Below, piece after piece: positions 10,948-28,416 of a stretch of DNA of 64,000 nt; within the stretch, counting starts at the first letter, position 1; the number at the start of each line of letters is the position of its first letter. Source of the stretch: Desulfovibrio sp. A2 (GTDB taxonomy: Bacteria > Desulfobacterota > Desulfovibrionia > Desulfovibrionales > Desulfovibrionaceae); contig NZ_AGFG01000035.1 of assembly GCF_000226255.1 (NCBI RefSeq), forward strand, positions 17,736 to 81,735, read 5' to 3'. The position numbers and the translations under genes are program-made. Below the pieces are notes generated by a model that was given only the letters and a program-made list of their open reading frames with translations, was not told the DNA's origin and did no database searches.

Positions 10948-11034
10948 GGCCGGTCTGATAGCAGGTGTGAATCCTGATTAAAAAACACATGGATATAAAA
11001 CAAACCACACGGTCAGAGCCACGCGAAAAAACAC

Positions 11035-12447
11035 CTACCCTAAAATAGCATCCACGTTTTCACCAAACGTGCGAAAGACAGCATCGCTGCGAGACGAAAA
11101 GTCCTCTGGCGTGATTTGCCCGTTGCGAAACTCATGCGTCATATGAACGAATACCTCATCCATTGCCTCAAGGCGCAATGCATCAAATTTTTCCCATGCC
11201 TCCGCGATTTCAGGGTTATCGAATTCCCATCCGTAATCCTCCCAAGGAGCAACGCCCCGCCCGTCGCTATCTTGCTTCTGTCCTGCATCGCGCGAACCTT
11301 TGTACTTCTTGAGGCGAAACAGCATTTGCGTCTTTTCGTATCCAAAATTACGCAACATGGCATGATCCTGACGCAACTGGGCAAGAGTGCTTTGGGGATG
11401 AAACATTATCATGCCCAGAATAGGACGAACTCCAAACTTTTCCAGCACCTCAATTGCCCGAATATTCACGTGGCCACTGGTTTTCTTGCCAAACATCTTC
11501 AGGGTAGCATCGTCAAAAGATTCCACACCGACAAAACATCGCTGCAAACCTGCCCTGCACAGTGCTTCGATGACCTGTTCATCAACTGCATCCGCTCTGG
11601 CATCAATCTCCAGACTAACGTCCACGCCTAATTCTGCAATCCTGCGCGCTATTTCCAAGACCCTGCTCTTCTCGGAGGGCTGCCCCAGAAAGTCCGCGTC
11701 CATAAACCAGAAATCCCGTAAGCCATATGCCTCGACTACATGGCGCACCTCGTCCGCCACTGCTGTCGGAGATCTCAACCGCCGCACCGCAGCGCAACCG
11801 GCCATCCGCTGGCTAGCTGCAATACTGCAAAAACTGCACGAATGCGCGCAACCGCGGGATGACTCTATGGCAACCCTGTAGCATAGCCTTGGAAAACGCG
11901 TGAGATGTGACAACTGCTCATAACTGCGTCTCCCAAGCGCGGCAAACTCCAGACCAGGCTTGGGGTTTGTGTTCCGAATACCGTCACTTGTCCGCACTGC
12001 CACACCAGGAATGTCGCACCACATGGCACAATCAGCTCCCGCATTCGCCATGTACAAGAACGGAATTTCCCCCTCGCCAAGAACAACACCGTGAAATGGT
12101 GTGTCCGCGCTTAAGAGATCATCGCAATGAAATGTAGCGTAGCTTCCGCCAGCAACAACCGCCGCATGAGGATACAGCCGCCGCAGTTCGCGTGCAGATG
12201 CGAACACATCGTCAACGTTGCTGTAATTCACGGAATATCCGACAATATCAGGACGTTCCGCGGCGGCTCGACTTGCCAGACCCTCATCCGGCACGTCATG
12301 CAACAACGTATCCAGAATGCTGACATCATGCCCCCCTTCCGCCAACACGCCGGCCAGCGAAGCAAGCCCAAGATGATCTACCGCAGGAGAAGCAGGCGTT
12401 CCATCAACACCCTTCGCAATATGCGCCAATACGCACCTCACGACCAC
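11035..12447 (-). CDS. B12-binding-domain radical SAM enzyme (RiPP cluster, last gene)
   Basis: 470 residues. Residues 1-130 look like a cobalamin-binding Rossmann domain (PAVDHLGLASLAGVLAEGGH, PDIVGYSVNYS, AVVAGGSYATFHCDD) but without the DxHxxG base-off motif. The radical SAM cluster motif is CAHSCSFC (Cys 200, 204, 207), followed by an elongator-type core with FWFMDADFLGQPSEKSR and VGVESFDDATLKMFGK. It overlaps the dipeptidase-like gene by 10 bases and ends the ten-kilobase minus-strand operon. Methylation or another carbon-centred modification of the peptide is the family expectation; the true reaction is unknown. Base composition is less GC-rich than the chromosome around it. Confidence 0.85.
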   Translation of the reverse strand: MVVRCVLAHIAKGVDGTPASPAVDHLGLASLAGVLAEGGHDVSILDTLLHDVPDEGLASRAAAERPDIVGYSVNYSNVDDVFASARELRRLYPHAAVVAGGSYATFHCDDLLSADTPFHGVVLGEGEIPFLYMANAGADCAMWCDIPGVAVRTSDGIRNTNPKPGLEFAALGRRSYEQLSHLTRFPRLCYRVAIESSRGCAHSCSFCSIAASQRMAGCAAVRRLRSPTAVADEVRHVVEAYGLRDFWFMDADFLGQPSEKSRVLEIARRIAELGVDVSLEIDARADAVDEQVIEALCRAGLQRCFVGVESFDDATLKMFGKKTSGHVNIRAIEVLEKFGVRPILGMIMFHPQSTLAQLRQDHAMLRNFGYEKTQMLFRLKKYKGSRDAGQKQDSDGRGVAPWEDYGWEFDNPEIAEAWEKFDALRLEAMDEVFVHMTHEFRNGQITPEDFSSRSDAVFRTFGENVDAILG

Positions 12448-13334
12448 CTCCCCTCAAAAAGCGCGTGCCAAACGTTTACCCAGAACACTCCCTCAACTTC
12501 ATCTGTCGACATTCCGCGCAGACGCAAAATTTCAAAAAGAGCCTTCAGGCCAGACGCTTCCGCCATTCCTTCGACAATGCCGACGCCCAATCCCGCCATA
12601 CTTGATTCCGCAAAATAATCTGGCCCCAGGCAGACACGCTCAACACCTACAACATCCGCAAGGTGCAGGATATGCATTGCCACATCATCCACACGCACGC
12701 CTGCCGCCGCGCCGCCTCCTCCATCCGCAAAGCCAACCAGGTCGTCGACAAAAGGCACGCCGAACAATTCTGCTCCACACGACACCAGTTCGGCATCACT
12801 CATCGCATTTGCCCGCCGGGCGATGTTCTTTTGCAGCAAAGCTTCGCAAACAATATGAGAAGCTATCTTCCTGCACGGGGATTCGCCTAACACATGTTGC
12901 AAGAGTGCTCCGTGCAAATGACTGATATCAAGAAAAATATCTGCTTCGGCCATGGCCCGCAACAAAACACGCCCATCACCGCTTACGCCAGAAAATGCTG
13001 ATATGTAACGACACTCTGCCATCTGATGATACAACTGAACAGCCTGTAACCCCGCGTTTCTCAAGTCTACCAAACGCCCCGGATCACCGAAATCAGGCAC
13101 GCCTTCTGCAGAAAAAAGCATCGGGAGGCCTTGCATATCGGCGGGCCGCAACGCTTCAGAATGCTCCAGATAAAACATCAAACCGGAGAAAGGATCATTT
13201 GCATCGCACGGCACTCCAAACATCTTCTCCAAAACCTGTGGTCGCCACTCGGCAGAAAGCACCATTCCCTTCAGGGGGGTGCGCCATATTGCATCCGGGA
13301 TACAATGCAAATGCACAGGCAACCACCCTCTCAT
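12438..13334 (-). CDS. Diverged M19 (membrane/renal dipeptidase-like) hydrolase in RiPP cluster
   Basis: 298 residues from ATG 13334, which overlaps the stop of the upstream gene (ATGA). Blocks line up with peptidase M19: a metal histidine pair H8xH10 where the family has HxD, the bridging glutamate E77 in FSAEG, then a helix AGLQAVQLYHQM, H139 in LDISHL, H160 in IASH (exactly 21 residues apart, as in renal dipeptidase), and D239 in LGPDY. The C-terminus ends in a family-like NVWHALF. It probably cleaves a peptide or amide bond, for example trimming the leader or product, but the Asp-to-His change leaves the metal site and activity uncertain. I recognised this from motif order only. Confidence 0.7.
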   Translation of the reverse strand: MRGWLPVHLHCIPDAIWRTPLKGMVLSAEWRPQVLEKMFGVPCDANDPFSGLMFYLEHSEALRPADMQGLPMLFSAEGVPDFGDPGRLVDLRNAGLQAVQLYHQMAECRYISAFSGVSGDGRVLLRAMAEADIFLDISHLHGALLQHVLGESPCRKIASHIVCEALLQKNIARRANAMSDAELVSCGAELFGVPFVDDLVGFADGGGGAAAGVRVDDVAMHILHLADVVGVERVCLGPDYFAESSMAGLGVGIVEGMAEASGLKALFEILRLRGMSTDEVEGVFWVNVWHALFEGRWS

Positions 13335-14710
13335 GCTCCCATCTCTCCTGACCGCTCCAGGCCTTGAAGAACGCACTCCATATGCCGCAAATCCGCCTCA
13401 CACCCCCCGCTTGAGCTGACTCCCAACGAACACAGTACTTTCAACGCTTCAATGCACCATTCTGTACGCACCTGCACATCGTCGTTCCCCCGCCCTGTAT
13501 GCCATAGCCGCCACGGTGCCACCTCTGGATACACTATGCCCAATTCCGCACGCCTGGCCCACAGCAAACTACCCTGGGGAATGCACAGGGGGTTTACCGC
13601 CACACAGGAAATCCGCCTACCCAATCTTGCAATAGCTTCAAGATCACTCTGAAACTGTTCTCTCGCTTGCAGCGGCGGCCCGGCGACGATAAGGCCCATG
13701 GAAACGCGCACCCCGACATCACTCAAACACTCAACAGCGTCCCGGGCTTTTCCGGCGACAGATGTCTTGCCGAGCACCTTCAAGAATTCCGCATTGAAGG
13801 ATTCCACTCCCAGAAACACATCAGAGCATCCTGAAGCCTTCAGTTGCGCTGCGATCTCCTTATCTATCCCCTTGCACTGCAACATCCCGTCCCATGTAAC
13901 ATCACACGTCTTCAAAGCATCAACAATCTGAAGCATCCTTTGCGGCGTAGGATTCAATACTGAATCACTGAATGTTACATGCCTCGCACTCCCACTGCAT
14001 GCCGAGACATCCTGCGCAACACGCCATGCAGACTTCATCCGGTAATGCCCCCACATCTGGGCATCATCACAAAATGCGCATCTGTTCACGCAGCCTCGTG
14101 ACGTTTCCTGGGGAACCACCCCGCGGCGCGCGTACAACCCCGCAGGAAATCCCGCATAATCCGGACTTGGCGCATCATCCAGCATGATCAGACGATGTTC
14201 ATATACCTTGGAAGGAAGCCCCTTATTCCGCAGTACGTCGGAAACCCATTCACATATGGCCACATCGCCTTCACCACGGCAAATGCTTACCCCTTCGCGC
14301 AGCGGAAACGCTGCGACCTCTTCCTCGTAAAAGAAGCCTGCCCCCCCGATGAGTATCGGCAACACGGGAAACCTTGCCCGCACAGCATCAATCACTGCAC
14401 TGGCAAACGCCCTTCCCGCACTGGCAGCGGACAGCGCCACCCCATCCGGAGACAGCGCAGCTATGGCGTCGCAAACATGCAATGCAACCTGCGACACCCA
14501 GCCCGCATACGAATCCACCGCCCCCCAGGATGACCACCCCGCACCGCTCCAACGCCATTTTTCAGTTTTGCACTGGGCATACAGCTCGACGTTGCAGTCT
14601 TTTATCACACATTCATGCCCGGCTCCACGCAATGCGCCAGCAAGCACTGCCGCCCCCAAGGGGGGACAATCCGGGGCGACAGGCGGCAATACTGCAAGCA
14701 GCACTTTCAT
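13331..14710 (-). CDS. B12-binding-domain radical SAM enzyme (RiPP cluster)
   Basis: 459 residues from ATG 14710, one base after the UvrA-like stop codon. Residues 1-150 resemble a B12-binding domain (PPLGAAVLAGALRGAGHE, PILIGGAGFFYEEE, RGEGDVAICEWV). The radical SAM motif is CVNRCAFC (Cys 207, 211, 214), preceded by PQETSRG. The rest, with FSDSVLNPTPQRMLQIVDAL and FLGVESFNAEFLKVLGK, is a standard SAM barrel. Ten or more cysteines are scattered through it, which could include auxiliary ligands. It is coupled both up- and downstream by overlap. Likely a maturase acting on the Cys-rich precursor; reaction unknown. Confidence 0.85.
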   Translation of the reverse strand: MKVLLAVLPPVAPDCPPLGAAVLAGALRGAGHECVIKDCNVELYAQCKTEKWRWSGAGWSSWGAVDSYAGWVSQVALHVCDAIAALSPDGVALSAASAGRAFASAVIDAVRARFPVLPILIGGAGFFYEEEVAAFPLREGVSICRGEGDVAICEWVSDVLRNKGLPSKVYEHRLIMLDDAPSPDYAGFPAGLYARRGVVPQETSRGCVNRCAFCDDAQMWGHYRMKSAWRVAQDVSACSGSARHVTFSDSVLNPTPQRMLQIVDALKTCDVTWDGMLQCKGIDKEIAAQLKASGCSDVFLGVESFNAEFLKVLGKTSVAGKARDAVECLSDVGVRVSMGLIVAGPPLQAREQFQSDLEAIARLGRRISCVAVNPLCIPQGSLLWARRAELGIVYPEVAPWRLWHTGRGNDDVQVRTEWCIEALKVLCSLGVSSSGGCEADLRHMECVLQGLERSGEMGA

Positions 14711-14711
14711 C

Positions 14712-16847
14712 TCAACACGCAAAAACCTCTGCCCAAAGCGTTTTTGGACAGGCAGACGGCGGCCCAGCATACTTGATCGCAACGGCACGAGAACCGCTGC
14801 CATGCTCGACGGGAGCCCCCAAAACAATCAACCAATCCGCCATTTGCGCCAGCGCCGGGTCGTTTTCTGCCACCAGCACGGTGTGTTTTTCGGCAAGACC
14901 CCAGAGCGTTTGCGACAGTAGCCCGGTCGCCCCTGCGCCGATCCCCCTGCACGGATTATCCAGCACATACAGCGACCGATCCCCCAACCGCTTGGACAGC
15001 ACGTCAACAATCTTGACGCGCAGATTCTCTCCACCGCTCAAACTGTTGGAGGGCTGCCCCAAAACAAGATATTCCAGGGCAACCCCCATAAAATGCTCAA
15101 ACCTGTCTCCAAATGCTGCATCACCGTGAAAGTGGCGGGCGGCCTGACGCATGGTCAGGCAGTTCACATCGGCGACAGACAGCCCCTTGTGCTTCGGGGC
15201 AAGAACCGCATCCTTGAAGCGTGTTCCGTGGCAACGGGGGCATTCTTCATAATGCACGTCATCCCGCGTCAGGTATCCGCGTCCGTGGCACTGCGGGCAT
15301 TGCCCTGCCTTTCCGTTGAAACTGAAGTGTGACTTGCTGAACTTCCGTCGCCGGGATTCCGGCAACGTCGCGTAAAAATCCCTTACCTTGTCCCATAGTC
15401 CTGTATACGTGGCTGGCGTGCTGCCAGCATGCACCCCTATGGGGTCGGGACTAACCTTGTGCGGACGGCGAACGGCGTCATGCCCCTTGCGCTCATCCAG
15501 GCTGGTTCTTCCCTGCCAGGCAATCGGCGTCTTGTCGCAGGCGGCGTATGCGGCCTCGATATAGGCCGTTTTGCCAGAGCCGCTGGGGCCGCACACGCAT
15601 GTTAAACGCTGTAGCGGCACAGCCACCGCAAAACCCGCAAACCCGTACCAGTCCGAAAACTGCGCGTGCAGTACATACTGTGCGTCCCCCTTGCGCCTTG
15701 CAGGGCGGGACTTGCCGGAAAGCGCCGCCGCAGAGGGCCGGGCAGGCGGCCCCTGCCCCACGATACGCCCGCCCTCGGCCCCGGCGCCGGGGCCAAATTC
15801 CGTCACCACATCTGCGGCCTCGATCAATTCGCGCCGATGCTCAACGGCGATGACCGTATGCCCCTTTTGCTGCACCGCGCGCAGCACCTTTGCCATCTGC
15901 CGGGCTTCACAACCTGTCATCCCTGCCGCAGGTTCATCAAAGATGACCAGCGCATCGGCTGGAATTTCTCGCAGCACCGCGAAAAAACGCAACTTCCTTG
16001 CCATGGCAGAGCTTTGCTGAAACATCGGCGCACGCACTGGCACATCGCCAAGACCAAGCAGCGAAAGCCATTCTCCATCCAGAGAAGAAGGCCACGTCAC
16101 CTGCTTCAGTGCCAGCCCTGCGGCCAGCATTTCCGGCGTTGCGGCAAACCCCCAGCCATCGCATTTCTTGCAACGCGGATACGATGTATAATACGGCAAT
16201 TCCTGCGCCAAATCCCCGGCGGCAGTTCCTTTGAGCAAGCTCCGAAGACTGGGAACAACGGGCCTGACCGGGGGAACACCTGCAAACAACAGTCTTTCTT
16301 GCATGCCAGGCGGCAGCCGCTTCCAGGCCAAATCGTGCTGAACGCCCGCCTCTGCACAAATCTTTCTCCAGCGGGCAGCATCCAACCCAACGCATTTCTT
16401 CACTGCGGGGCTGAATGCGCCTGCCGTGACGGACCCTTCCGCATTACGGACAACCCGGGCAGGATCGATATCCCGCAGGTACCCCTTGCCCGCGCAAGCA
16501 GGGCAAGACGGCACCGCCCTGCCCTGCGACCTGAAAATCTGCGGCACCCCCACATGGACACCGACGCTCTCTATAAGGGACCTGTGCGTAAGCTGCTGCT
16601 CTATGCCCACCACAAAGTGCGGCAACCCCTCTACCCTGTACTGGGGCCGCGACTTGCGGAACACCTTGGAAAGGCCACGCGCGCAGCCTTTGGCGTCTGC
16701 CGCAGCGTACAACACATCAAAGGCCAACGACGACTTGCCGCTTCCGCTGGGCCCGCTGAACACGTGCAACTTGCCCTGCTCGAACGAAACCTGCTCTATC
16801 CGCAAGTTATTCACAGTGACATCGTACAACTGGATCAACTGCGTCAC
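14712..16847 (-). CDS. Shortened UvrA-like ABC ATPase in RiPP cluster
   Basis: 711 residues, against about 940 for UvrA. Two ABC halves are present. Half 1 has Walker A GPSGSGKS (32-39), CxxC pairs at 115/118 and 226/229, a degraded signature (QSSAMARKL near 278), and Walker B IFDEP (302-306). Half 2 has Walker A GPSGSGKT (420-427), a UvrA-type zinc module CPQC...CPRC (517/520, 536/539), an intact LSGGE (603-607), and Walker B VLDNP with Asn in place of the catalytic Glu. The order matches UvrA without the UvrB-binding insert. Paralogues of this kind (DrrC type) protect producers against DNA-binding drugs, so a self-resistance role is plausible. It lies inside the operon, one base before the next gene. 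Confidence 0.85.
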   Translation of the reverse strand: MTQLIQLYDVTVNNLRIEQVSFEQGKLHVFSGPSGSGKSSLAFDVLYAAADAKGCARGLSKVFRKSRPQYRVEGLPHFVVGIEQQLTHRSLIESVGVHVGVPQIFRSQGRAVPSCPACAGKGYLRDIDPARVVRNAEGSVTAGAFSPAVKKCVGLDAARWRKICAEAGVQHDLAWKRLPPGMQERLLFAGVPPVRPVVPSLRSLLKGTAAGDLAQELPYYTSYPRCKKCDGWGFAATPEMLAAGLALKQVTWPSSLDGEWLSLLGLGDVPVRAPMFQQSSAMARKLRFFAVLREIPADALVIFDEPAAGMTGCEARQMAKVLRAVQQKGHTVIAVEHRRELIEAADVVTEFGPGAGAEGGRIVGQGPPARPSAAALSGKSRPARRKGDAQYVLHAQFSDWYGFAGFAVAVPLQRLTCVCGPSGSGKTAYIEAAYAACDKTPIAWQGRTSLDERKGHDAVRRPHKVSPDPIGVHAGSTPATYTGLWDKVRDFYATLPESRRRKFSKSHFSFNGKAGQCPQCHGRGYLTRDDVHYEECPRCHGTRFKDAVLAPKHKGLSVADVNCLTMRQAARHFHGDAAFGDRFEHFMGVALEYLVLGQPSNSLSGGENLRVKIVDVLSKRLGDRSLYVLDNPCRGIGAGATGLLSQTLWGLAEKHTVLVAENDPALAQMADWLIVLGAPVEHGSGSRAVAIKYAGPPSACPKTLWAEVFAC

Positions 16848-16859
16848 GACAGCACCCCT

Positions 16860-18488
16860 TCAATCCGCAAATGACAGGCTGTATCGTTCGGAAAGCAATA
16901 TGCTGTCCGCCATGGTCGGAAAGCACTTTATCTGCTTTTTCCGGGTATAGAACCGCTCTTCGATATCCTTGTCATCCACACCACCCTCACCGCGCTGCCG
17001 GTACTCCGGGTGAGACCAGAAATCCGGGGCAGCGGTTCTGGCAATGTCATCAGGGTCTGCTGCACGCGCAATCGGCGATTCTTCATACAGCGCAAATTCC
17101 GAAAAATTGAACCCGTCTATATTGCGCAGGTTTTCAAACAGAAAATCGACGGTTTGGCGCACGTCTGCGACCTGCTCGCCGGGAAAGCCGTGCATGAGGT
17201 ACACATGAACCCCCATGCCCGCTTCCGCAACACTTCGCAGCACGCGACCGGCCATTTCTGCGGTCGTCCCCTTGCACATTCCCCGCAACACCGCATCAGA
17301 GGCGCTTTCCAGCCCAAACCGCAAGAACCTGCACCCCCCGGAATACAACTGGCTTGCCACGGTTGGATCTGCCAACCTTCTGGAAATCCTGCTGTTCCCT
17401 CCCCAGCGCAGGTTGGCCTGCCTGCTTTGCAGCGCGCCTGCCAGGCCCACCATGAACGCCGCGGGCAGTTCAGCATCCAGAAAATACACGCCGTCAGCCC
17501 CGTAGGTAACGGCAAGCGCGTGCAGGTCTTCGGCAACAAGTTCAGGATTGCCGTCCAGCCTGTCTGCATGAAAATGGTAGCGTGCATCGGCGCAAAAGGC
17601 ACATTTGCGCCACTGACAGCGTGAAAAGACCCGGTACGGAAGCACCCTGCCCGCAGCCCGGTAATCGCCTAGCGGAAAGGCATCAAAATTCGGACGCCGC
17701 GCCTGTTCCTGCGCAACGCCGGATGCAATCCAGCAACCGTTGGACAGCACGCGCGCGCCGGGAAGGGACACGCGCCCGCGCACCTTTTCAAGCGATGTGA
17801 CCAGGGATTCGCCCGCCCCCAGCATGGCGCCGTCGGCACTGTGCCAGATGGGGGTCTGTTCCGTAAGCTGCTGCGCGAACGCATTCAGCAGCCCCCCACC
17901 CCAGATCACCGTAACGCCTTCTTCGCGCAGCCGTTGGCCCAACACCAACGCGGCGGGCAACTGCCCGTCAAAGTTGACGGACAACCCCACCCAATCCGGC
18001 TGATGCCGCAATATGCCCTGCACCACGGAACCCGCAGCCACCCACTGCCGCCAGACGCCGTCCGGTTCCAGCGCCGTGGCGGCCACCCTGCGCAAATCAG
18101 GCCATTCCCCGTGATACGTCACCTGGTACGGGGCAAACCCATACCGGGGAAACGCCTTGCCAAGCAGGCGCAGCATTTGCTGCTGCTGCCGGTATCCTGT
18201 CAGATATTGCGAGGCATTGTGGGCATGAGCGGGCAGAAATGGCGCAAACGAACCGCTGTGGCCCCAGCGCCCGCTTTCGATGAAACGCAGAAAATCCAGA
18301 TTCGCGTCCACAACAGCATGCGGCGCGCCCTGCTCGGCAAGGGCCGCCGAAAGCAGGCCCACGCCCAGCATCGGAACGGATGGATCCTGAAAAGGCAGGG
18401 AAACGAGAACGCACCGCAACGCCGCGTGGGTGCGCTGCCGTAATGTCACCCCGGCAGCATTGATGGGGTGGGGGGGGCGCCTGATCAT
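16860..18488 (-). CDS. Radical SAM enzyme with B12-binding-like N-domain and CX4CX2C motif (RiPP cluster)
   Basis: 542 residues from ATG 18488. The frame extends to a GTG at 18581 that would overlap the PqqD-like gene by 22 bases; neither start has a strong ribosome site. Residues 25-230 look like an extended B12-type Rossmann domain (SVPMLGVGLLSAALAEQGA, WVGLSVNFDGQLPAAL, VTVIWGGGLLNAF). The cluster motif is CQWRKCAFC at 291, 296 and 299, so four residues separate the first two cysteines instead of the usual three. The core continues with YGADGVYFLDAELPAAF, RFGLESASDAVLRGM and YLMHGFPGEQ, typical of B12-radical SAM proteins. Likely a peptide maturase. Confidence 0.83.
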   Translation of the reverse strand: MIRRPPHPINAAGVTLRQRTHAALRCVLVSLPFQDPSVPMLGVGLLSAALAEQGAPHAVVDANLDFLRFIESGRWGHSGSFAPFLPAHAHNASQYLTGYRQQQQMLRLLGKAFPRYGFAPYQVTYHGEWPDLRRVAATALEPDGVWRQWVAAGSVVQGILRHQPDWVGLSVNFDGQLPAALVLGQRLREEGVTVIWGGGLLNAFAQQLTEQTPIWHSADGAMLGAGESLVTSLEKVRGRVSLPGARVLSNGCWIASGVAQEQARRPNFDAFPLGDYRAAGRVLPYRVFSRCQWRKCAFCADARYHFHADRLDGNPELVAEDLHALAVTYGADGVYFLDAELPAAFMVGLAGALQSRQANLRWGGNSRISRRLADPTVASQLYSGGCRFLRFGLESASDAVLRGMCKGTTAEMAGRVLRSVAEAGMGVHVYLMHGFPGEQVADVRQTVDFLFENLRNIDGFNFSEFALYEESPIARAADPDDIARTAAPDFWSHPEYRQRGEGGVDDKDIEERFYTRKKQIKCFPTMADSILLSERYSLSFAD

Positions 18489-18559
18489 GCGACTGGATAG
18501 CAGCGCATACAGGCAGAGGCAAGGGGAGCCTGCCGGACGGGAATACGCAGGACAGGCAC

Positions 18560-18838
18560 CTAGCGTGCCACGGTGACGCACCCCGCCTTCAGGCAGAAAC
18601 GCACGAATTCGGGCAACATCTGCCGGACAGCGTCGTCCTCGTATTCTTCAAGCAGCAAGGCTTCGATTTCGCGCACCGTACGCTTGCCGTCGAACAATTC
18701 CCATACGGCTGCCGCGTCCTCGTTCAGGTTGAGGATCGGCATGTTGCCGCCCGCCAGCATCACGCCGAACGCCTCGCGGCGCATCATGGTCCCCGGTGCG
18801 GGCACGGGAACGGCTTCGTACAGTTCGTTGTCGTCCAT
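18560..18838 (-). CDS. PqqD-like peptide chaperone (RRE domain)
   Basis: 92 residues from ATG 18838, with AAAGGA upstream. The core NLNEDAAAVWELFDGKRTVR followed by EIEALLLEEYEDD and LPEFVRFCLKAGCV is the PqqD/RRE pattern: a three-strand, three-helix fold that binds the leader of a ribosomal peptide and presents it to a radical SAM/SPASM enzyme. The stop codon is 10 bases before the SPASM gene stop region ends upstream, so spacing is tight. Its presence is strong context for a ribosomally made, post-translationally modified peptide. Confidence 0.87.
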   Translation of the reverse strand: MDDNELYEAVPVPAPGTMMRREAFGVMLAGGNMPILNLNEDAAAVWELFDGKRTVREIEALLLEEYEDDAVRQMLPEFVRFCLKAGCVTVAR

Positions 18839-18848
18839 AAGGCATCCT

Positions 18849-19838
18849 TTACCCGAGGAGCACGTCCTCTGCATCGATTTCGTTGGCCCTGGCAAACGCG
18901 GCCGCACGGCACCCGCCGCCGCAGTCTTCCAGCATCGGGCACGCACGGCATTTTTCCGGCAGATGGGCCAGCGTCCGGTACCGGGCGTACAGATCGGCCC
19001 CGTGCAGCACGTCGCACAGCGGGGTTTCCAGCAGATTGCCCAGCACGTGCCGCCCCATGCCGCACACCATCACCTGCCCCTGCACGTCGATGTAGAACTT
19101 GTCATGCCCGAAAGAACACCTGTTGCACAGGTGCTGCAAATCTTGCGGCAACTGGCAGGCAGGGGCCGAATTGGCCAGCAGCAACGCAATGCCGCGGCTG
19201 TCCGTCGCCTCCACCAGCACCCGCAAGGCGCTGATGAACGCATCCGCCCCCAGTTGCAACGGCTTGTCCTTGCCAAGGCCCGTGGGGATAAACCGGGTGA
19301 TGGTCATTTCTTCGCAACCGGTGGCGGCCAGGATGTCCACCGTTTCACGCAGCACGTCTGGCCGGGCGTTGCGGCTGTTCAGCACCAGATTGCTGGCCGC
19401 GCGAATACCGGCGCGCACGGCATGTTCCAGGGCAGCGCGGGTTTCGGCAAACGAGCCGGGCCTTCCGACCAGGGCGTCATGCACGGCTTCTGGCCCATGC
19501 AGCGAAAAATTCACGCAGAACACCGCATTCTGGCGCAGCACATCAAGTGCCTGGGCAGTTGCGAACAGGGTGCCGTTGCTTTGCACCATGACCCTGGCGA
19601 ACAGGCTGCCTGCAAGCTTCAGCAAAGCCGGAAACCGCGAATGCAGCGCGGGTTCCCCCCCGGTAAAGATCAGCTCCATCACCCCGGCATCGGCAAGGCG
19701 ATGCAGAATGCCTTCCGGGTCTCTGCTTTCACGCGGGGCGCAGGAATTGTAACAGAACGCGCAACGCAAGTTGCACGCTTCCGTCAGTTCCACCTCCACA
19801 CGGGTGACGGGCAGGGGAAAGAACGCAGGCGCGGGCAT
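18849..19838 (-). CDS. Radical SAM/SPASM peptide maturase B
   Basis: 329 residues from ATG 19838, which shares one base with the stop of the preceding gene (TAATG). The radical SAM motif is CNLRCAFC (Cys 22, 26, 29), followed by the GGEP motif in ELIFTGGEPALH. The C-terminus is Cys-rich and SPASM-like: CNRCSFGHDKFYIDVQGQVM, CGMGRHVLGNLLE, then CRACPMLEDCGGGC, enough for auxiliary iron-sulfur clusters. Enzymes of this type make thioether, carbon-carbon or other cross-links in ribosomal peptides. It lies directly next to the PqqD-like gene and the second SPASM protein. Confidence 0.9.
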   Translation of the reverse strand: MPAPAFFPLPVTRVEVELTEACNLRCAFCYNSCAPRESRDPEGILHRLADAGVMELIFTGGEPALHSRFPALLKLAGSLFARVMVQSNGTLFATAQALDVLRQNAVFCVNFSLHGPEAVHDALVGRPGSFAETRAALEHAVRAGIRAASNLVLNSRNARPDVLRETVDILAATGCEEMTITRFIPTGLGKDKPLQLGADAFISALRVLVEATDSRGIALLLANSAPACQLPQDLQHLCNRCSFGHDKFYIDVQGQVMVCGMGRHVLGNLLETPLCDVLHGADLYARYRTLAHLPEKCRACPMLEDCGGGCRAAAFARANEIDAEDVLLG

Positions 19839-20848
19839 TACGCCCCCCACTTGAACGTGCCGGGGGTATGCCCGCAGGCATGCAGGCAATCGTCGTAAAA
19901 AACGCAGCCGCCCCGGCAGCTTTCCAGTTCTTCGCACTCGCGGCAGTTGGCGGGCAGGTGCTGCACCTGTTCATACCGCTTCCAGGCCGTGTTGCCCCAC
20001 AGGGCGGCAAAGGGGGTATCCAGCACGTTGCCTATCACGTTGTCGGAAAGGGGGCAGGGGGTCATCAGCCCTTGCGGCGATATGCGGCACAGGCCGTACC
20101 CCACCTGGCACGGCGTATTCCACTGGCGCAGCCGGTCGCGGTATTCGTCCGGCAATTCGCAATACGGCACGGGGCCGGGCAGCTTTACTTCTGCATACGT
20201 TGGCAGATCGCGCTTGATGCGGTCCAGCGAGTCAAGCACCGATATGGTTTCGGGGACGCCAAGCACGTGTTCGCTGCCTGCGCTGCTGACCATGATGTAC
20301 CGGGTAACGCAAAACACATGCACGCCCGGCTCGGCCATTACCCGCGCAATATCGTAGAGTTCTGCGTAATTGCCCTTGAAGGTGCAGACGTTTATCTCCA
20401 CCTTCATGCCGCGCTCAAGCACCCGCCGCACGCCCTGGCGCATTCTGCCGAACGCGCCGAAGCTGCCCACAAGTTCATCATGGCGCTGCTCGGCAGCAGC
20501 AAGCACAGAGGTACACAGGCTGGGAAAGCACTGCGCCAACTGGTCGGCAACCTGATCGCTGATGAGCGTGCCGTTGGTGTTCAGATGAATATCGAACCCC
20601 AGGGCCTTGGCATGCCGCGCGATATCAAAGAAATCCGGGCGGGTAAGGGGTTCGCCGCCATTGAAATTGATGGAAAACACCCCCGCTTCACGCATCTGGT
20701 CCAGCAGGTGCTTGCACTGGTCCGTGGACAACTGCCCGCCGTCGGCGCGCATGGCGTCATTATAACAAAAGAAGCACCGATGGTTGCACGCATCGGTGAG
20801 TTCAAACTGCACGTAGAAGGGAGCACTGGGCCGTGTGATTGCTGGCAT
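19838..20848 (-). CDS. Radical SAM/SPASM peptide maturase A
   Basis: 336 residues. The cluster motif is CNHRCFFC (Cys 21, 25, 28), followed by the glycine motif in INFNGGEPLTRPDF and the TNGTLI strand. The SPASM-like end has CQVGYGLCRISPQGLMTPC, a partial bridging region, then CRECEELESCRGGC and extra cysteines (YDDCLHACG). It is the first maturation gene after the precursor peptide and its terminator. No Shine-Dalgarno-like sequence precedes the ATG (C-rich leader), so translation may be weak. It is related to maturase B, and the pair may work in sequence or as a complex on the Cys-rich core. Confidence 0.9.
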   Translation of the reverse strand: MPAITRPSAPFYVQFELTDACNHRCFFCYNDAMRADGGQLSTDQCKHLLDQMREAGVFSINFNGGEPLTRPDFFDIARHAKALGFDIHLNTNGTLISDQVADQLAQCFPSLCTSVLAAAEQRHDELVGSFGAFGRMRQGVRRVLERGMKVEINVCTFKGNYAELYDIARVMAEPGVHVFCVTRYIMVSSAGSEHVLGVPETISVLDSLDRIKRDLPTYAEVKLPGPVPYCELPDEYRDRLRQWNTPCQVGYGLCRISPQGLMTPCPLSDNVIGNVLDTPFAALWGNTAWKRYEQVQHLPANCRECEELESCRGGCVFYDDCLHACGHTPGTFKWGA

Positions 20849-20878
20849 TGAGGCGGGGGGATTGATAGAAAATGCTAT

Positions 20879-20916
20879 AAAAAAAGCAAGGGCAGGCCAA
20901 GCCTACCCCCACTTGC
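20879..20916 (-). terminator. Intrinsic terminator between precursor and maturation genes
   Basis: On the minus strand, GCAAG then GGGTAGG pair with CCTGCCC then TTGC around a short loop, followed by seven T. It begins about 10 bases after the precursor stop codon. Partial read-through would give much more precursor mRNA than enzyme mRNA. Confidence 0.75.
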
Positions 20917-20925
20917 CGTGCCAGC

Positions 20926-21087
20926 CTAGCGGCAGGCGGTGCATGCGGTACATGCGCAGCAGGCGACTGCCTTTTCCGCGTCCGTGCTCACGACAGTCCG
21001 ACTCGGGGTGCTGAAGGGCTGCTTGAACGCGCTGAACACTTCCACGCGGGGAGCAAACGGCTTCTTACGCTTGGCACCGGTAGCCAT
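20926..21087 (-). CDS. Cys-rich RiPP precursor peptide (53 residues)
   Basis: A short gene: ATG at 21087, TAG at 20926-20928, with AAGGGG about 8 bases before the start. The leader begins MATGAKRKKPFAPRVEVFSA and is basic, followed by an aromatic, Ser/Thr-rich stretch ending STDAEKAVA. The C-terminus is CCACTACTACR, five cysteines at 43, 44, 46, 49 and 52 spaced with Ala and Thr, then a terminal Arg. There is no Cys outside this region. Position (first in a minus-strand operon with two SPASM maturases and a PqqD-like protein), terminator and composition all fit a RiPP precursor. I do not recognise the peptide family. The modified core is probably within residues 42-53. Confidence 0.85.
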   Translation of the reverse strand: MATGAKRKKPFAPRVEVFSAFKQPFSTPSRTVVSTDAEKAVACCACTACTACR

Positions 21088-21166
21088 ATCGAAAACCCCT
21101 TGAAATACATGGCGTTTATCTTTTCTGCCCGCAGGTGCCGGGCATTCCTCAACCTATTACCGTTCG

Positions 21167-21195
21167 CTCATACCTGCCGTGCGCTGAAAAGTAAA
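21167..21195 (-). promoter_or_regulatory. Candidate sigma-70-like promoter of the RiPP operon
   Basis: TTTACT (21190-21195) and TATGAG (21167-21172) are separated by exactly 17 bases and lie about 80 bases before the precursor start codon on the minus strand. Each box matches four of six consensus bases. Confidence 0.4.
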
Positions 21196-21264
21196 CCCCG
21201 ACCCGGCCCGCGCCTGGGGGGCGCTGCCGCGCGACCAGCTTACGCAATCTGAACCTGCACACCG

Positions 21265-21303
21265 GATATCGTGATATTGCCAAAATATCCATCTGCATAT
21301 AAC
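21265..21303 (+). promoter_or_regulatory. Candidate promoter/operator region of the RADAR operon
   Basis: An AT-rich patch holds GGATAT...ATATCC as an inverted repeat, TTGCCA at 21277-21282 and TATAAC at 21298-21303, 15 bases apart. It lies about 60 bases before rdrA. Spacing is suboptimal, so this is tentative. Confidence 0.3.
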
Positions 21304-21359
21304 CATTGCGCACACCCAGGAACGCACCAACCACGCGCCGTTCGGGCGCAGGTGACACC

Positions 21360-23963
21360 ATGAGCACTGACAAAGAAAATAATGCGCAAGCCGAGTCCAA
21401 CAGCTGGATCATCATTGCCCCCAAGGCAAGCCGCACCGCTGCCGCCTACGAAGACAAGAACCTCATCCAGCAATCTGCGCTCAGGGATGTCGTCGAATTC
21501 GTCAGAGATACGCGATCCCATATTCAAAAATTCAAGAATGAACTGCAATCTTGCAATTCACATACGTTTCGGTCGCGCTTTCACGACACTATACTTATTG
21601 ATGGCGAGCGCGGCACGGGAAAAACATCGTTTCTCCTCAGTGCAGTAAACCATTTATGCAGCACTGGTGACCCATCTTCTCCTCCCGAACGGAACAAAAA
21701 CGCTCCCATCAGCCTGGGCATCATTGACCCCACACTTATTTCCACCAAGGAAAACATCTTCATCCTGGTTATTTCCAGAATCAAACAATATGTAGATGAT
21801 AATCATGACAAAAACATTTCTCACGAATGCGACGGCAAATACCAGGACTGGAACGAGCAACTAACCAAGCTGTCACGCGGACTGTGCATGCAGGACGGCA
21901 TAGGAACCGATGCCCTCTTGCACGAGAAGTGGGAAGATGCCAACTACATCATGCAGGAAGGCCTGAATAACGCGCAAAGCGGACTCGACCTCGAACGCAA
22001 TTTCCATAAATTCATATACAAGTCCCTCGATATACTTAGTAAAGACTGTTTCATTCTCTGCTTTGACGATACGGATACAGATTTCAGCAAAGGATGGCCT
22101 GTTCTCGAACTTCTCCGCAAGTATTTTACAACTCCCCAACTGATCACCTTACTCTCCGGCGACTATGCCTTGTACGCAAAGCTTGTGCGCATCAACCAAT
22201 GGAAACTTTTCAAAGATCACCAGCATGCCATATACCACTATGGCACGAAGAACATCAAAGAAACTATAGAATCCTTAGAATCCCAGTATCTCACAAAAAT
22301 ACTCCCTCCAAACCGCCGCATACTACTCAAAAATGCCTGGGAACTTCTTGATCACCTGCGCGTAAAAGACCCTACGCGACCGGATGCAGAGCCAATACGC
22401 ATTGACAACCTTTTTGAATCCTTTACGGCTCTATGGTATCGCTACCCCACTTCTGTGTGCAGAAAAATCGGCGACCTCTTCACACACCTTCCCATGCGCA
22501 ACATTATACATATACTGCACGTTATAAGCAGCGCTAAAACAAAAACCAAGACTACATATAACGCTCAAGCAAAAGACGAGACTACAGATGGTGCTCAGCA
22601 GATCATAGAAAAGCAAACATATGAATATGCCCGCAGCATCCAAGACCACAGGAAAAAACTAGAGCATGGAGAACCATCAACTCAGCCCAGCATCCCACCG
22701 CTAAACAATGAAGATGCCATCCTTGCTGTGCATTCAAACATGATTCTTATTTACTACAACAACCTCATCAACCTCGGCTTTGCCCAATATGAATTGAATG
22801 CCATTCAATGGACAGGGTCGTTTTATAGACTATCTGAAATACTCAACGAAAAAAGACTCATAAAAAATGGGGCAAGCCTGCTACCGGCAAACGTCATGCC
22901 GCAAGACGGCTTGGACATCCTCCTGCTCTCCGGCATATACACATCGGCGATTCTTGGCGACATTCGCCTTATATTCGACTACTATATTCGGGTACTTCTG
23001 GTACGAGACATCCTGGCCCCAACCAACGGCAAAGACTCCCCAACCGAGGACGACTTTCAATACAAACAACTTTTTTCATCTGAAAAATCGTTACTCGACA
23101 TCACAACAACAATAACAAATATCTGCATCACAGAAGGCGGTAAACATGCCACTTTAAAAAATATGCTAGTAGATATCACCACTGCCACAAACGAACAGCC
23201 CTCCAGCCAAGGCCGTGTATATATCAAAAAACTACTACACAATTACACAACACATGTACATTACGATGCAAACGGGAAACGCATTGTTTACTTTTCCCCA
23301 TTCAACGCCATAGCACTCCTTGCGCTCTGTGTTGGATCCACAGGCGACTTCAGATTTGAACTTGAAAGATACACAAAACCACATACAACTCATCCAACAT
23401 ACCCCGTAGACACCAAAGACAGCTCTCCGGTCGGCACGCCGGAAGGCGCTCCGGAAGGCGCTCCGGAAGGCGCTCCGGAAGGCGCTCCGGAAGGCGCCGG
23501 AACCACCATCCGGAATGACACCTCAGTGTGTAGCAGCGATGAATCTGATTTCTTCAACAAACTTTCTGATAAGATACATGAATCAGCTTTAAAATACCAT
23601 AATGGCACACTCAAAAAGATACCGTTACTACTTCCTCTTTACGTCCACCATGATATATGGACAGATTTCATTCAAAATTTAAATATACAATGCGGCTCTG
23701 AAATCGACACCACCGAACTATTAAAGAAGACATACAAAGCCTTCACAGATTCCATAGAAAAAATCGAAAATAGATATAGCAGCCAAAGAACAGCAGAGAC
23801 ACTTCTTGCAGGTTTCATCAAGGAGAACACACCGACAGCACACATCGACGCCCTAGACGAGCCATCCACCTTGCAGGCGTCGCAAGCCGACCAAGGTAAC
23901 CAAGGCGAACAGAATGGCCAGGACGTGCAAGCAAATACAGAGAACAACACCACCCCTAGCTAA
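21360..23963 (+). CDS. rdrA: RdrA-type ATPase of RADAR anti-phage system
   Basis: 867 residues from ATG 21360, with AGGTGA 6 bases upstream. Walker A is GERGTGKT (82-89) in TILIDGERGTGKTSFLL; a Walker B-like ILCFDDTDTDFSKG follows near residue 232. The rest is a long helical region without recognised motifs, as in RdrA. It lies 2 bases before a large adenosine-deaminase-like gene, the defining pair of RADAR. RdrA is known to form a ring that works with RdrB during phage infection. Composition is clearly AT-richer than the flanks, indicating transfer. A run of PEGA repeats interrupts residues 694-713. Confidence 0.87.
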   Translation: MSTDKENNAQAESNSWIIIAPKASRTAAAYEDKNLIQQSALRDVVEFVRDTRSHIQKFKNELQSCNSHTFRSRFHDTILIDGERGTGKTSFLLSAVNHLCSTGDPSSPPERNKNAPISLGIIDPTLISTKENIFILVISRIKQYVDDNHDKNISHECDGKYQDWNEQLTKLSRGLCMQDGIGTDALLHEKWEDANYIMQEGLNNAQSGLDLERNFHKFIYKSLDILSKDCFILCFDDTDTDFSKGWPVLELLRKYFTTPQLITLLSGDYALYAKLVRINQWKLFKDHQHAIYHYGTKNIKETIESLESQYLTKILPPNRRILLKNAWELLDHLRVKDPTRPDAEPIRIDNLFESFTALWYRYPTSVCRKIGDLFTHLPMRNIIHILHVISSAKTKTKTTYNAQAKDETTDGAQQIIEKQTYEYARSIQDHRKKLEHGEPSTQPSIPPLNNEDAILAVHSNMILIYYNNLINLGFAQYELNAIQWTGSFYRLSEILNEKRLIKNGASLLPANVMPQDGLDILLLSGIYTSAILGDIRLIFDYYIRVLLVRDILAPTNGKDSPTEDDFQYKQLFSSEKSLLDITTTITNICITEGGKHATLKNMLVDITTATNEQPSSQGRVYIKKLLHNYTTHVHYDANGKRIVYFSPFNAIALLALCVGSTGDFRFELERYTKPHTTHPTYPVDTKDSSPVGTPEGAPEGAPEGAPEGAPEGAGTTIRNDTSVCSSDESDFFNKLSDKIHESALKYHNGTLKKIPLLLPLYVHHDIWTDFIQNLNIQCGSEIDTTELLKKTYKAFTDSIEKIENRYSSQRTAETLLAGFIKENTPTAHIDALDEPSTLQASQADQGNQGEQNGQDVQANTENNTTPS
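23439..23498 (+). repeat. Five tandem 12-bp units inside rdrA
   Basis: The unit CCGGAAGGCGCT occurs five times in a row (the last ends in GCC) and encodes repeated Pro-Glu-Gly-Ala. It is in frame, so gain or loss of a unit changes the protein by four residues. It is a GC-rich patch inside an AT-rich gene. Confidence 0.9.
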
Positions 23964-23965
23964 CC

Positions 23966-26680
23966 ATGCTCACAACCTCATTATTCAACAACCACCTCTT
24001 GCTCCACAGGCTCTCAAGGGGGGATAATACACCTAATTTTCGGGAGATTATCGAGAACATCCATTTCACCACTGCCCGCAACGGCCACAGCAAACTCCCC
24101 GACCATCTGATCAAGAACTGGATGGCCAGAGCCAACGCCGAGGGCAAAACCGACCTTGCCCAATTGATTGCGAATCACCTTGATCATCTGGTGGAACACA
24201 CGCTGGCCATGGACGGAGAGGATATCTTTGTCCAGAGCAGACACTTCGAGCTATGGCAAGAAATCATAGGCGAAACGTCTCCCCTGCTGCTGCTTGCGTG
24301 GAAGATCAGCAAGGACACACCGCACATCCGGTCACGCGATGCACATGTCGAGCAATTGATACACCGGAACATTCAGCCGCATGTGTTCCCCGGCCTGCAC
24401 GCCCCCCTGCTTGAAGAACGGTTGCGTCGCATGGGTCTGTGCGACCTGCACATACACCTGAACGGCAGCACACCCAGTGATGTCGTATGGCTGGACGCCC
24501 TGGCATCTCCCCGCAAGTTTCGGGCACGCATGGCGCATGAGCACCGCCACAGCCGCAAGGAAATAGAAGAACTTCTCCTGCAAACCTGCCCGCTTTTCGA
24601 CTGGCGGGACCTGTGCTCGCTTATCGATATCGCAGCAGGCCTGCGCGACTGGCTGGTACGCAGACTGTTTGCTTCCACCATCTCACCCGTCTGGATTCCC
24701 TCTGGCGAACAAGAGCCCGCCTGCCTCCCCCACTGCCACCTCCACACCCCGGACGCTTGTGGAAAACGCGAACATCAGCTGCACTGCTCGCGCTACCGCT
24801 GGTGGGGCAGGCTGCACCACGACATGCACCTTTCTCGCTACACCTTTACCGGCGTCTCCAGACAACAACTGCGCATCCACCCCCTGCAAAAGTACTTTCC
24901 CTCACGCGCGTCCCGCTTCCCCAGAAACCTGCTCCATCAGGAAGCCTGCTTCCTTGTTCATGCGCTCACCGAACTCCGCACAAGACGCGATGACAGGGTG
25001 GCAACATTCCTGTTCTACTACCTGTCCATACAGAGCCTGTTTACGCGGCTGCTCGTACAGCAGGCCGACCAATACGGGTTTGACCAATTCCAGAAGATAA
25101 CCCTTACAGGGCTGCGCGAAGAGGTAGAGAGCTCCTATCCTGCCAGGATGATCCAGTTTGCAGCCTCATCCACCGGTCACGAAATACATGTGGAAGGGCG
25201 GTTTGCGCCAAAATCAAATTTTATAGCCTTGCATACATTGCTGCGAAAAATAAACAGGGGCGATATTGCCCCCGTCGCCTTCCGTGCGCCCGGCAGACAC
25301 CCATCGCCCCGGCATCCTGCTTCCGCAACCCCACCCAACGTCACGCTATCCCTGGTGGCACACCTGATCAAACAGAAAGACGAAAAGACGCACAGAGGAG
25401 CCCAACACTACAGGCTCAGACGTGCCCTGCAAAAGCAGGTGCGCCACCTGCTCAACTACATCAACCACCCCCAGAACCAAAAACATCTCGCCCAGATCGT
25501 GGGCTTTGACGCTGCCTCGAATGAACTGCACACCCCGCCGGAAGTCTTTGCCCCGGCCTTCCGCCAATTACGCCGCGGGGGCCAACGCAATTTCACCTTT
25601 CATGTCGGCGAAGACTTTCAGCACCTTGCCAGCGGCATTCGGGCCGTGCATGAGGCCATCACCTTTCTTGACCTGGGCGCCGGCAACCGCATTGGTCACG
25701 GCACTGCTGTCGGCATCGCCCCCAAACTCTGGAGGCAGCGCGTAGGGCCTTCCATCTGCCTGTTGCGCGCAGAATGGCTGGACACGCTGGTATATGCCCA
25801 CCAGACCCTTTCGGGCAGCGCGTGCTATTCCGACATACGCAGTGTCGTGGAAGGAGACATCCACCAGCACTCGCGCGCCGTATACGGCAGGCCGCTGACG
25901 CCGGAAACGCTGTGGCAAGCATGGCTGCTGCGCAAGCTGGACCCCATTCGCTGCTTTATCGACAAGGACAAGACCCAGTGCCTGTCCCTGAAGGAACGGG
26001 AAGAGGAATGGGGCATGATCGAACGCCACAGACCAGCGCCCCGCAGCACAACACCGAATGACGCCCACAGCTCTTACGACGACCCGTACCAGGTATTTGC
26101 GGAGTACCACCAGAAGCACGTTTTTGCGGCATACAACCCCCAAGCGGGCACTTCTGCCCGCGACAAAAAGAACGGGGCAAAGCCGAACGGGCGATATGTC
26201 GACGTGGCGACCGACTACTTCACGGATGAAGCCCTTGCGTACATGCAGATCCGGGTCCTGAAAGAGATTGTCGACCGCAAGATCGCCATTGAATCGATGA
26301 TCACAAGCAACGTGCGCATCAGCTTCTATCAAGGGTACGACGAGCACCACATACTCCGCTGGCTTGGGCTGGACCCCAACTTTACCGACGAACCCCACCC
26401 CACCGTCTGTCTGGGCACGGACGACCCCGGCATTTTCGCCACCACAATGAAGAACGAATGCCTGCACCTGCTCGGCATGCTGACCCGGCGCGGCAAATCA
26501 GAGGCGAAAGCCGTGGACATCATCGCCCGGCTTGTAGAAAACTCGCACGCGTACAGCTTCAAAATCGCCCCCCCAGCAGGGCATGACCGATCCTGCAACG
26601 GCGCGGGGCAATCCCCTTCGACAGACGGGACGCGAATGACCGCCAACCGCGCATGCCGGACAAGAAACCGGGACTGGTAG
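23966..26680 (+). CDS. rdrB: RdrB-type adenosine deaminase of RADAR anti-phage system
   Basis: 904 residues, starting 2 bases after the rdrA stop codon. The metal motif is DLHIHLNGS with H162 and H164; later come FHVGED (near 546-551), RIGHGTAVG (near 575-583) and LGTDDPGIF (near 815-823). Together they give the His, Glu and Asp residues of the adenosine/AMP deaminase fold. The length, with large inserts between these motifs, is that of RdrB rather than of housekeeping deaminases. RdrB converts adenosine (nucleosides/nucleotides, and reported RNA) to inosine during infection. The first ~150 residues and the C-terminal tail are unassigned. No rdrC or rdrD is present. Confidence 0.88.
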   Translation: MLTTSLFNNHLLLHRLSRGDNTPNFREIIENIHFTTARNGHSKLPDHLIKNWMARANAEGKTDLAQLIANHLDHLVEHTLAMDGEDIFVQSRHFELWQEIIGETSPLLLLAWKISKDTPHIRSRDAHVEQLIHRNIQPHVFPGLHAPLLEERLRRMGLCDLHIHLNGSTPSDVVWLDALASPRKFRARMAHEHRHSRKEIEELLLQTCPLFDWRDLCSLIDIAAGLRDWLVRRLFASTISPVWIPSGEQEPACLPHCHLHTPDACGKREHQLHCSRYRWWGRLHHDMHLSRYTFTGVSRQQLRIHPLQKYFPSRASRFPRNLLHQEACFLVHALTELRTRRDDRVATFLFYYLSIQSLFTRLLVQQADQYGFDQFQKITLTGLREEVESSYPARMIQFAASSTGHEIHVEGRFAPKSNFIALHTLLRKINRGDIAPVAFRAPGRHPSPRHPASATPPNVTLSLVAHLIKQKDEKTHRGAQHYRLRRALQKQVRHLLNYINHPQNQKHLAQIVGFDAASNELHTPPEVFAPAFRQLRRGGQRNFTFHVGEDFQHLASGIRAVHEAITFLDLGAGNRIGHGTAVGIAPKLWRQRVGPSICLLRAEWLDTLVYAHQTLSGSACYSDIRSVVEGDIHQHSRAVYGRPLTPETLWQAWLLRKLDPIRCFIDKDKTQCLSLKEREEEWGMIERHRPAPRSTTPNDAHSSYDDPYQVFAEYHQKHVFAAYNPQAGTSARDKKNGAKPNGRYVDVATDYFTDEALAYMQIRVLKEIVDRKIAIESMITSNVRISFYQGYDEHHILRWLGLDPNFTDEPHPTVCLGTDDPGIFATTMKNECLHLLGMLTRRGKSEAKAVDIIARLVENSHAYSFKIAPPAGHDRSCNGAGQSPSTDGTRMTANRACRTRNRDW

Positions 26681-26716
26681 CAAAGCCAGGCACGGACGGG
26701 CAAGACACATTCCCAG

Positions 26717-26786
26717 CAACGCAAAAAAGGGCGAGGCATTGTTACCTCGCCCTTCGTGCATTCGATGGCGGAGCGGAAGGAACTCT
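26717..26786. repeat. Degenerate copy of tRNA-Asp 3' end plus its terminator (att-like)
   Basis: This stretch aligns with 28294-28360: the same hairpin, the same GTGCATTCG spacer, then GGCGGAGCGGAAGG, which is the acceptor/T-arm end of the tRNA-Asp at 28340-28416. Only about 20 bases of the tRNA are present, with a few differences. The pattern is that of a site duplicated by integration at a tRNA 3' end. Confidence 0.7.
26723..26752 (-). terminator. Intrinsic terminator between rdrB and the oxidoreductase gene
   Basis: GGGCGAGG and CCTCGCCC form an 8-bp stem with an 8-base loop. On the minus strand it is followed by six T, giving a good terminator for the oxidoreductase gene; on the plus strand it could also end rdrB transcripts. 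Confidence 0.8.

Positions 26787-26834: not shown

Positions 26835-27692
<858 letters not shown>

Positions 27693-28360: not shown

Positions 28361-28416
<56 letters not shown>

Follow-up and report, generated by a model that had tools for sequence, protein, structure and literature searches.

What does a compact set of nine genes make when it begins with a 53-residue open reading frame and includes five predicted radical S-adenosylmethionine (SAM) enzymes, and why does it contain a UvrA-like ATPase? The set lies at positions 11035-21087 of the window, the whole 64,000-base stretch of contig NZ_AGFG01000035.1 of Desulfovibrio sp. A2 that was analysed. A sequence-only reading of this DNA had proposed a cluster for a ribosomally synthesised and post-translationally modified peptide (RiPP). 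Comparison with other genomes, above all with a second complete copy on contig L001 of a Spirochaetia metagenome-assembled genome (MAG), gives the RiPP reading strong support at the level of sequence, and from the same sequences we infer the chemistry and a role at DNA. The best reading is a new radical-SAM RiPP class whose product likely acts on or near DNA. In its full form, which we hold with moderate confidence, a ribosomal peptide with an ACCAC(TAC)n tail would be modified by five radical SAM enzymes in a mobile pathway, and a UvrA-related ATPase would protect the DNA of the producer. The nine adjacent genes, in their order from the peptide gene onwards and with identities to the L001 copy, are as follows.

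20926..21087, minus strand: precursor peptide, 53 amino acids (aa); 21 homologues at E<=1; 80% identity
19838..20848, minus strand: SPASM radical SAM maturase 1 (SPASM1), 336 aa, with CX3CX2C and SPASM cysteines; PF04055 and PF13186 above cut-off; 72%
18849..19838, minus strand: SPASM radical SAM maturase 2 (SPASM2), 329 aa, ATG 19838; PF04055 and PF13186 above cut-off; 57%
18560..18838, minus strand: PqqD-like RiPP recognition element (RRE), 92 aa, ATG 18838; PF05402; 52% (32% to the L030 copy)
16860..18581, minus strand: B12-type radical SAM protein A, CX4CX2C; PF04055 above and PF02310 below cut-off, TIGR03975 below cut-off; 43%
14712..16847, minus strand: UvrA-like ATPase by NCBIfam and PDB sequence, 711 aa, UvrB-binding domain absent and distal ATP site degenerate by alignment; 45%
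13331..14827, minus strand: B12-type radical SAM protein B, CX3CX2C; PF02310 and PF04055; 38%
12438..13334, minus strand: M19-like dipeptidase-type hydrolase, HxH motif; PF01244 at 65.7 bits, alignment with the L001 copy; 42%
11035..12447, minus strand: B12-type radical SAM protein C, CX3CX2C; PF02310 and PF04055; 50%

All nine open reading frames are found where the sequence-only reading had placed them, and Pfam, NCBIfam and PDB sequence searches assign domains that agree with the content it had given. The three junctions it had named are also present: TAATG between SPASM1 and SPASM2 (ATG 19838), ATGA between protein B and the M19-like gene (ATG 13334), and a 10-base overlap of the M19-like gene (ending at 12438) with the protein C gene (GTG 12447). 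Its description of the genes as tightly spaced holds for gaps and overlaps of at most 12 bases and fails at two places, where 77 bases separate the peptide gene from SPASM1 and where 71 or 140 bases precede protein A, given a start at 18488 or 18419. By comparison with the L001 copy, the probable starts are ATG 18488 or TTG 18419 for protein A, ATG 14710 for protein B, and 13334, not 13376, for the M19-like protein.

The peptide is composed of a leader, FAPRVEVFSAFKQPF, and a C-terminal core, ACCACTACTACR. A search of 5.8 billion proteins with residues 2-53 returned 21 homologues at E<=1, and for 17 the E-value lies below 1e-10; the number of NCBIfam families matched by the precursor was zero. 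The 22 aligned rows are identical at 11 columns of the core and 8 of the leader. The C-terminal end is ACCACTACTACR in 18 rows including that of the window and ACCACTACTACTACG in three, and the remaining row (P0141) has an altered, longer end. Entropy, counted on alignment A2 over 19 of the 22 rows (P0129, P0133 and P0141 left out), is 0.0 bits in the core, 0.58 in the leader motif, 1.8 in the spacer and 2.28 at the N-terminus. The peptides of the window, of L001 and of G591, a second genome from the phylum of the MAG, all have a leader FxPxxEVFxxFxxPF followed by a terminal ACCAC([TS]AC)2-3-[RK]; the G591 peptide, MKKDFSPKIEVFDPFKEPFSGKSSVVFDEHDLDACCACTACSACSACK, contributes the further ending ACCACTACSACSACK. 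Thus, the cysteine-rich precursor proposed earlier is indeed a peptide with homologues, but its tail is more than cysteine-rich, being a near-invariant ACCAC([TS]AC)n motif.

Of the 12 core codons, 8 differ between the window and L001 while every residue stays the same, as selection on the peptide itself would give. The same constancy between distant genomes would suit another product, a cofactor derived from the peptide or a thiol ligand for metals that stays inside the cell; the UvrA-like ATPase and the M19-like hydrolase would then perform maturation or loading steps and not self-protection. We regard this alternative as possible though doubtful. PQQ (pyrroloquinoline quinone) and mycofactocin are cofactors of peptide origin, and the cysteine spacing CC-x-C-xx-C-xx-C would be in keeping with such a ligand, whereas the variable number of TAC repeats in the core (n = 2 or 3) speaks against it.

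The L001 contig, the single locus returned by a SPASM1 scan of bacterial and archaeal genome contigs, holds all nine genes in the same order, with one additional gene between PqqD and the first B12-type gene. This gene (L026:2568-4154 of the circular copy described below) encodes about 528 aa, has no Pfam match and has no counterpart in the window cluster. The small open reading frame is real and beyond chance, because it has 21 homologues and because the nine genes recur in order in L001. A collection of nine unrelated or degenerate genes with a spurious peptide frame could be argued from the NCBIfam scan, in which no cluster protein reaches the cut-off of any family among the matches listed (the best 25 per protein; four proteins had 28-85 matches). 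The conserved order, the identities of 38-80% in all nine genes and the precursor homologues refute this explanation, which we consider extremely improbable.

At E<=1e-60, profile A3 finds SPASM1 orthologues in three genomes, those of the window, G591 and G453, and in all three a gene for a cysteine-rich peptide lies directly upstream. The situation named earlier as fatal to the proposal, in which relatives keep the radical SAM genes and lack such a peptide, was thus not encountered in these three. In G591, the peptide gene is followed by SPASM1, SPASM2, PqqD (32% identical to that of the window) and the start of a B12-type protein, at which the contig ends; this copy is chromosomal, because genes for IMP dehydrogenase and adenylosuccinate lyase share the contig. 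The housekeeping-type UvrA of Desulfovibrio sp. A2 is 46-48% identical to its G591 and G453 versions and 57-72% to those of three genomes of its own order, which fits hosts in different phyla. Metagenomic precursors are linked to SPASM1 relatives indirectly: 7 of the 21 match one of 120 listed relatives in the exact size of the longest contig (mean 0.14, maximum 2 in 2000 draws with jittered sizes). One relative, P0040 (51% identical to SPASM1), shares its longest-contig size with a TAC-extended precursor. Related peptides may be the substrates of a large group of SPASM1 relatives (P0041-P0108), most of them 43-50% identical and one bearing the name Syntrophomonadaceae.

The locus follows the logic of a radical-SAM RiPP pathway, because the leader motif, the PqqD protein, the SPASM pair and the core are present together: a short precursor gene with a conserved leader and a distinct core adjoins modifying enzymes. 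The PqqD domain (PF05402) scores 38.9 bits against a cut-off of 23.4, as expected of a recognition element (RRE/PqqD), and Radical_SAM with SPASM was found twice. With the conserved precursor, these results uphold the earlier assignment to RiPP maturation from the pairing of PqqD with SPASM. Radical_SAM was also found in proteins A, B and C, and the B12-binding domain exceeds its cut-off in two of them, scoring 23.9 against 32.1 bits in protein A; the unusual CX4CX2C motif of protein A occurs in both window and L001. The M19-like protein has Peptidase_M19 (PF01244; 65.7 bits, cut-off 26; 87.2 bits was also obtained), and HxH replaces in both copies the N-terminal HxD that is the usual metal motif of M19 dipeptidases. 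A Glu, two His and an Asp are kept at M19 metal-ligand positions. Predicted structures of the M19-like protein (mean predicted local distance difference test score 41.3, two alignment rows) and of the UvrA-like protein (68.4) were not used.

The following order of events is proposed. The conserved leader would bind the PqqD-like recognition protein, and the SPASM pair would then likely cross-link cysteines by thioethers to adjacent Thr, Ser or Ala. Such stapling is most likely the first chemistry, because five cysteines stand within ten residues of the core beside Thr/Ser and Ala. According to PMC8326336, radical SAM maturases of this kind link Cys through thioethers to alpha, beta and gamma carbons. 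The three B12-type proteins likely act on carbon atoms of the same short core, by methylation or by another change; we infer methylation from family resemblance only. The M19-like hydrolase likely trims the leader or terminal residues, and the UvrA-like ATPase likely shields the producer's own DNA from the product.

The last of these assignments was addressed by comparing six cluster-type proteins (window, L001 and P0142-P0145) with 11 others, of which eight are plasmid-borne UvrA or UvrA-like proteins, two come from relatives and one is the organism's own UvrA; in two of the 11 the N-terminus is incomplete. NCBIfam and PDB sequence searches identify the cluster protein as UvrA-type, and a protein search with its residues 45-330 gave at least four proteins (7995 best word-sharing candidates scored). 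One of the six, P0144, is tied to the cluster by a longest-contig size, 19415, exactly that of the SPASM1 relative P0004. The UvrB-binding domain is missing from all six, which have 14-18 residues in its place; the five full UvrAs have 174-190, and 6 of the 11 comparison proteins likewise have a short stretch there, of 35-61 residues. The segment inserted between the zinc-2 cysteine pairs measures 106-113 residues in the six, in which all eight zinc cysteines are invariant and two zinc sites are kept.

The proximal ATP site is canonical in all six (Walker A1, Walker B1 Asp-Glu, H-loop 1 His and signature II LSGGE), whereas the distal site is degenerate in all six, with signature I S[ST]xxxR for SGGE, DN in Walker B2 and N in H-loop 2. 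The changes from Glu to Asn in Walker B2 and from His to Asn in H-loop 2 occur in 6/6 cluster-type and 0/11 comparison proteins; the latter have Walker B2 DE and H-loop 2 His throughout, with signature I as LSGGE in ten and LSPGE in one. In a FastTree phylogeny a long branch with support 1.0 unites the six, beside four UvrB-less actinobacterial proteins (support 0.94). When relatives were searched with the UvrA-like protein, 54 of 59 genomes matched at E<=1e-40, and the full-length cluster-type match was confined to the own genome; the remaining matching relatives align within residues 243-659, like the organism's second UvrA.

This is an architecture of the Ecm16/DrrC self-protection type. 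We claim the architecture and not membership of that family, because a PDB search places the protein nearer others than Ecm16. According to PMC10192343, Ecm16 lacks the same domain and zinc module, needs its insertion domain for DNA binding and gives ATP-dependent self-protection; PMC10413001 has UvrA-like genes marking clusters for DNA intercalators, with RiPPs among the actinobacterial cluster classes found. By analogy, the Ecm16/DrrC-type architecture suggests that the product likely binds DNA or acts close to it. The conserved degeneracy of the distal site would also be compatible with an ATPase repurposed for cofactor maturation or loading.

The cluster resides on a segment that sets it apart from its surroundings.

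10968..26828, no strand assigned: 15.9-kb insert (peptide cluster and RADAR), with no counterpart at this position in the three congener loci that are informative

The GC fraction is 0.565 in the insert and 0.675 and 0.679 in its flanks. Homology to the congener loci L046, L047 and L049 (the contig of a fourth congener ends too early) stops at 10965-10967; it restarts at 26829 in L046 or 26845 in L047, with 137 and 164 bases intervening there, and only at 28290 in L049. Just outside the left end, a small cysteine-rich open reading frame of 78 aa (10711-10947), without a Pfam match, is covered by congener homology. On the right, two tRNA-Asp genes and one tRNA-Val gene occupy 28340-28675, and congener G004 shows no homology at the insert site to an NmrA-like gene (26835-27692).

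In the MAG, an exact 141-base terminal overlap of the contig, agreeing with k141 in its title, closes a circle of 44,450 bases. It encodes a MobA/MobL-type relaxase, a TraD-type gene, a ParA-type ATPase, an IS110 transposase and a resolvase, and by its gene content is most likely a mobilisable plasmid. It also carries a HicA-type gene (L026:17998-18363) and a molybdenum hydroxylase with 2Fe-2S and molybdopterin domains in one chain (L027:5644-8373, minus strand). The latter could be counted in favour of a cofactor or metal ligand. Against that product stand the lack of any further enzyme recognised as common to both full loci, for which no systematic search was made, and the rarity of the precursor, which is carried on an insert or circle. 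Its profile matched 2 of 395 genomes in the phylum of the window, leaving 1 of 395 after removal of a chance match, and 2 of 296 in that of G453. The match removed (G146) is an antisense frame inside a histidine-kinase-like gene. The SPASM1 profile matched 1 of 247 genomes of the window's order, 1 of 394 of the class of G591 and 2 of 241 of its order, in samples that overlap.

Co-conservation of precursor and enzymes, the support that had been anticipated, thus extends across distant genomes, but it marks a rare and mobile set and not a trait of the window's order. The cluster was likely acquired by gene transfer and spread by mobile DNA. No SPASM1 or precursor match was found in collections of plasmid and phage records at the limits used, and in viral contigs the SPASM1 profile gave nine pattern stretches with no confirmed relative. 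Spread by viruses was rejected: a degenerate core pattern occurs in 107 viral contigs, of which two encode the bare core in some frame and none the leader motif, and these matches are chance or codon repeats.

The insert also contains a RADAR pair at 21306-26680, RdrA (885 aa) and RdrB (904 aa), scored at 107 and 101 bits by PADLOC. That the peptide cluster and this pair share one insert, divergent across at least 218 bases, could mean that the product is an anti-phage or interbacterial weapon functionally joined to the accompanying defence genes. An AbiEii-type nucleotidyltransferase gene (L030:13662-14561, 121.7 bits) about 0.7 kb upstream of the G591 peptide gene adds a little to this idea, as does a match of the UvrA-like protein to the PADLOC model mad3 at 96.9 bits, although UvrA-type proteins match many ATPase models and such a match is weak evidence. 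The circle, however, has no gene of RdrA or RdrB size, its frames above 800 aa being the relaxase, the molybdenum hydroxylase and the reverse strand of the latter; moreover, among the three cluster proteins scanned with PADLOC, the M19-like protein matches no model and protein C only PDC-M51A (20.6 bits). We judge a weapon of this kind improbable.

Several observations weigh against the main reading, in which a mobile pathway makes a modified peptide and the UvrA-like protein guards the producer's DNA. A PDB search scores this protein higher against the UvrA 3pih (258.9 bits) than against Ecm16 7sh1 (213.7 bits); it sits on a long branch, and its dead distal site is unlike Ecm16. Three of the six cluster-type proteins (P0142, P0143 and P0145) were assigned by similarity alone, and the search of G591, whose cluster ends at the contig end, gave one housekeeping-type match and no cluster-type UvrA-like gene. 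The host of the circular contig depends on MAG binning. The product and its reactions are predicted from genes alone, and none of the radical SAM proteins whose chemistry is predicted reaches an NCBIfam cut-off among the matches listed. Pfam recognised no exporter among the nine genes, and this absence, together with the invariance of the core between distant genomes, would be explained at least equally well by an internal cofactor or metal ligand. These two observations favour a metal or redox ligand that stays in the cell, and the UvrA-like architecture favours a DNA-directed agent, which we rank somewhat ahead.

A more specific proposal may be offered tentatively. The ACCAC(TAC)n peptides would form a new mobile RiPP class of repeat-built, cysteine-stapled, C-methylated and DNA-targeting products, with a UvrA-derived guardian that has a single live ATP site per protomer, plasmid-borne between phyla and located in defence islands. 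If the guardian role is true, UvrA-type self-protection would reach into radical-SAM peptide biosynthesis, and a naturally occurring relative of UvrA in which one ATP site is live would become available for studying the role of each site. The cluster offers genes for up to five radical SAM reactions on a core of 11-14 residues in a small, co-conserved set. With its strict invariance and variable number of TAC repeats, this core opens the chemistry to a direct test by mass spectrometry.

No description of this gene set was found in the titles and abstract openings of the open-access papers searched, and no such paper contained the peptide strings, in agreement with the earlier statement that no described pathway has the full set. 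Sactipeptides and ranthipeptides (maturases SkfB, AlbA and SCIFF) likewise combine a cysteine-rich core peptide with a SPASM maturase, and a PDB search with the SPASM1 profile gives its best score, 91.5 bits, for the thioether-forming SkfB, but this match is confined to the radical SAM core (residues 11-185). The present locus differs in having two SPASM and three B12-type proteins, a separate PqqD and a short-period (TAC)n core, and all matches to sactipeptide or ranthipeptide maturase or precursor models among the NCBIfam families listed stay below cut-off. The ACGX system (TIGR04340 maturase; SPASM1 60.9 and SPASM2 62.5 bits, cut-off 400) is similar in placing short Ala-Cys-containing repeats beside a SPASM enzyme, whereas the repeat here has three residues, TAC, and is accompanied by extra enzymes.

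The PQQ and mycofactocin pathways also pair a PqqD-type recognition protein with a SPASM enzyme, and the match of PqqE to the SPASM1 profile (70.2 bits) spans almost the whole length. Scores nevertheless stay below the PqqD (TIGR03859; 25.3 bits, cut-off 46), PqqE and mycofactocin maturase cut-offs, and the core here is built on Cys, whereas the PQQ and mycofactocin precursors have Tyr-containing cores. The B12-radical SAM C-methyltransferases of RiPPs (TIGR03975) are the best NCBIfam match of protein A, at 74.9 bits against a cut-off of 281.85 and with the CX4CX2C motif setting protein A apart; the hydrolase exceeds the gathering score of M19 dipeptidases and departs from them in its HxH. A repair UvrA has the UvrB-binding domain that the cluster protein lacks. 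Compared with Ecm16 and DrrC, for which canonical sequences in both ATP sites would be expected and which come from the echinomycin and daunorubicin clusters of Streptomyces, the protein has a degenerate distal site in all six members and belongs to a RiPP-type cluster; it shares with them the absence of the UvrB-binding domain, the retention of zinc modules 2 and 3 and of the insertion segment, and the location of its gene in a biosynthetic cluster.

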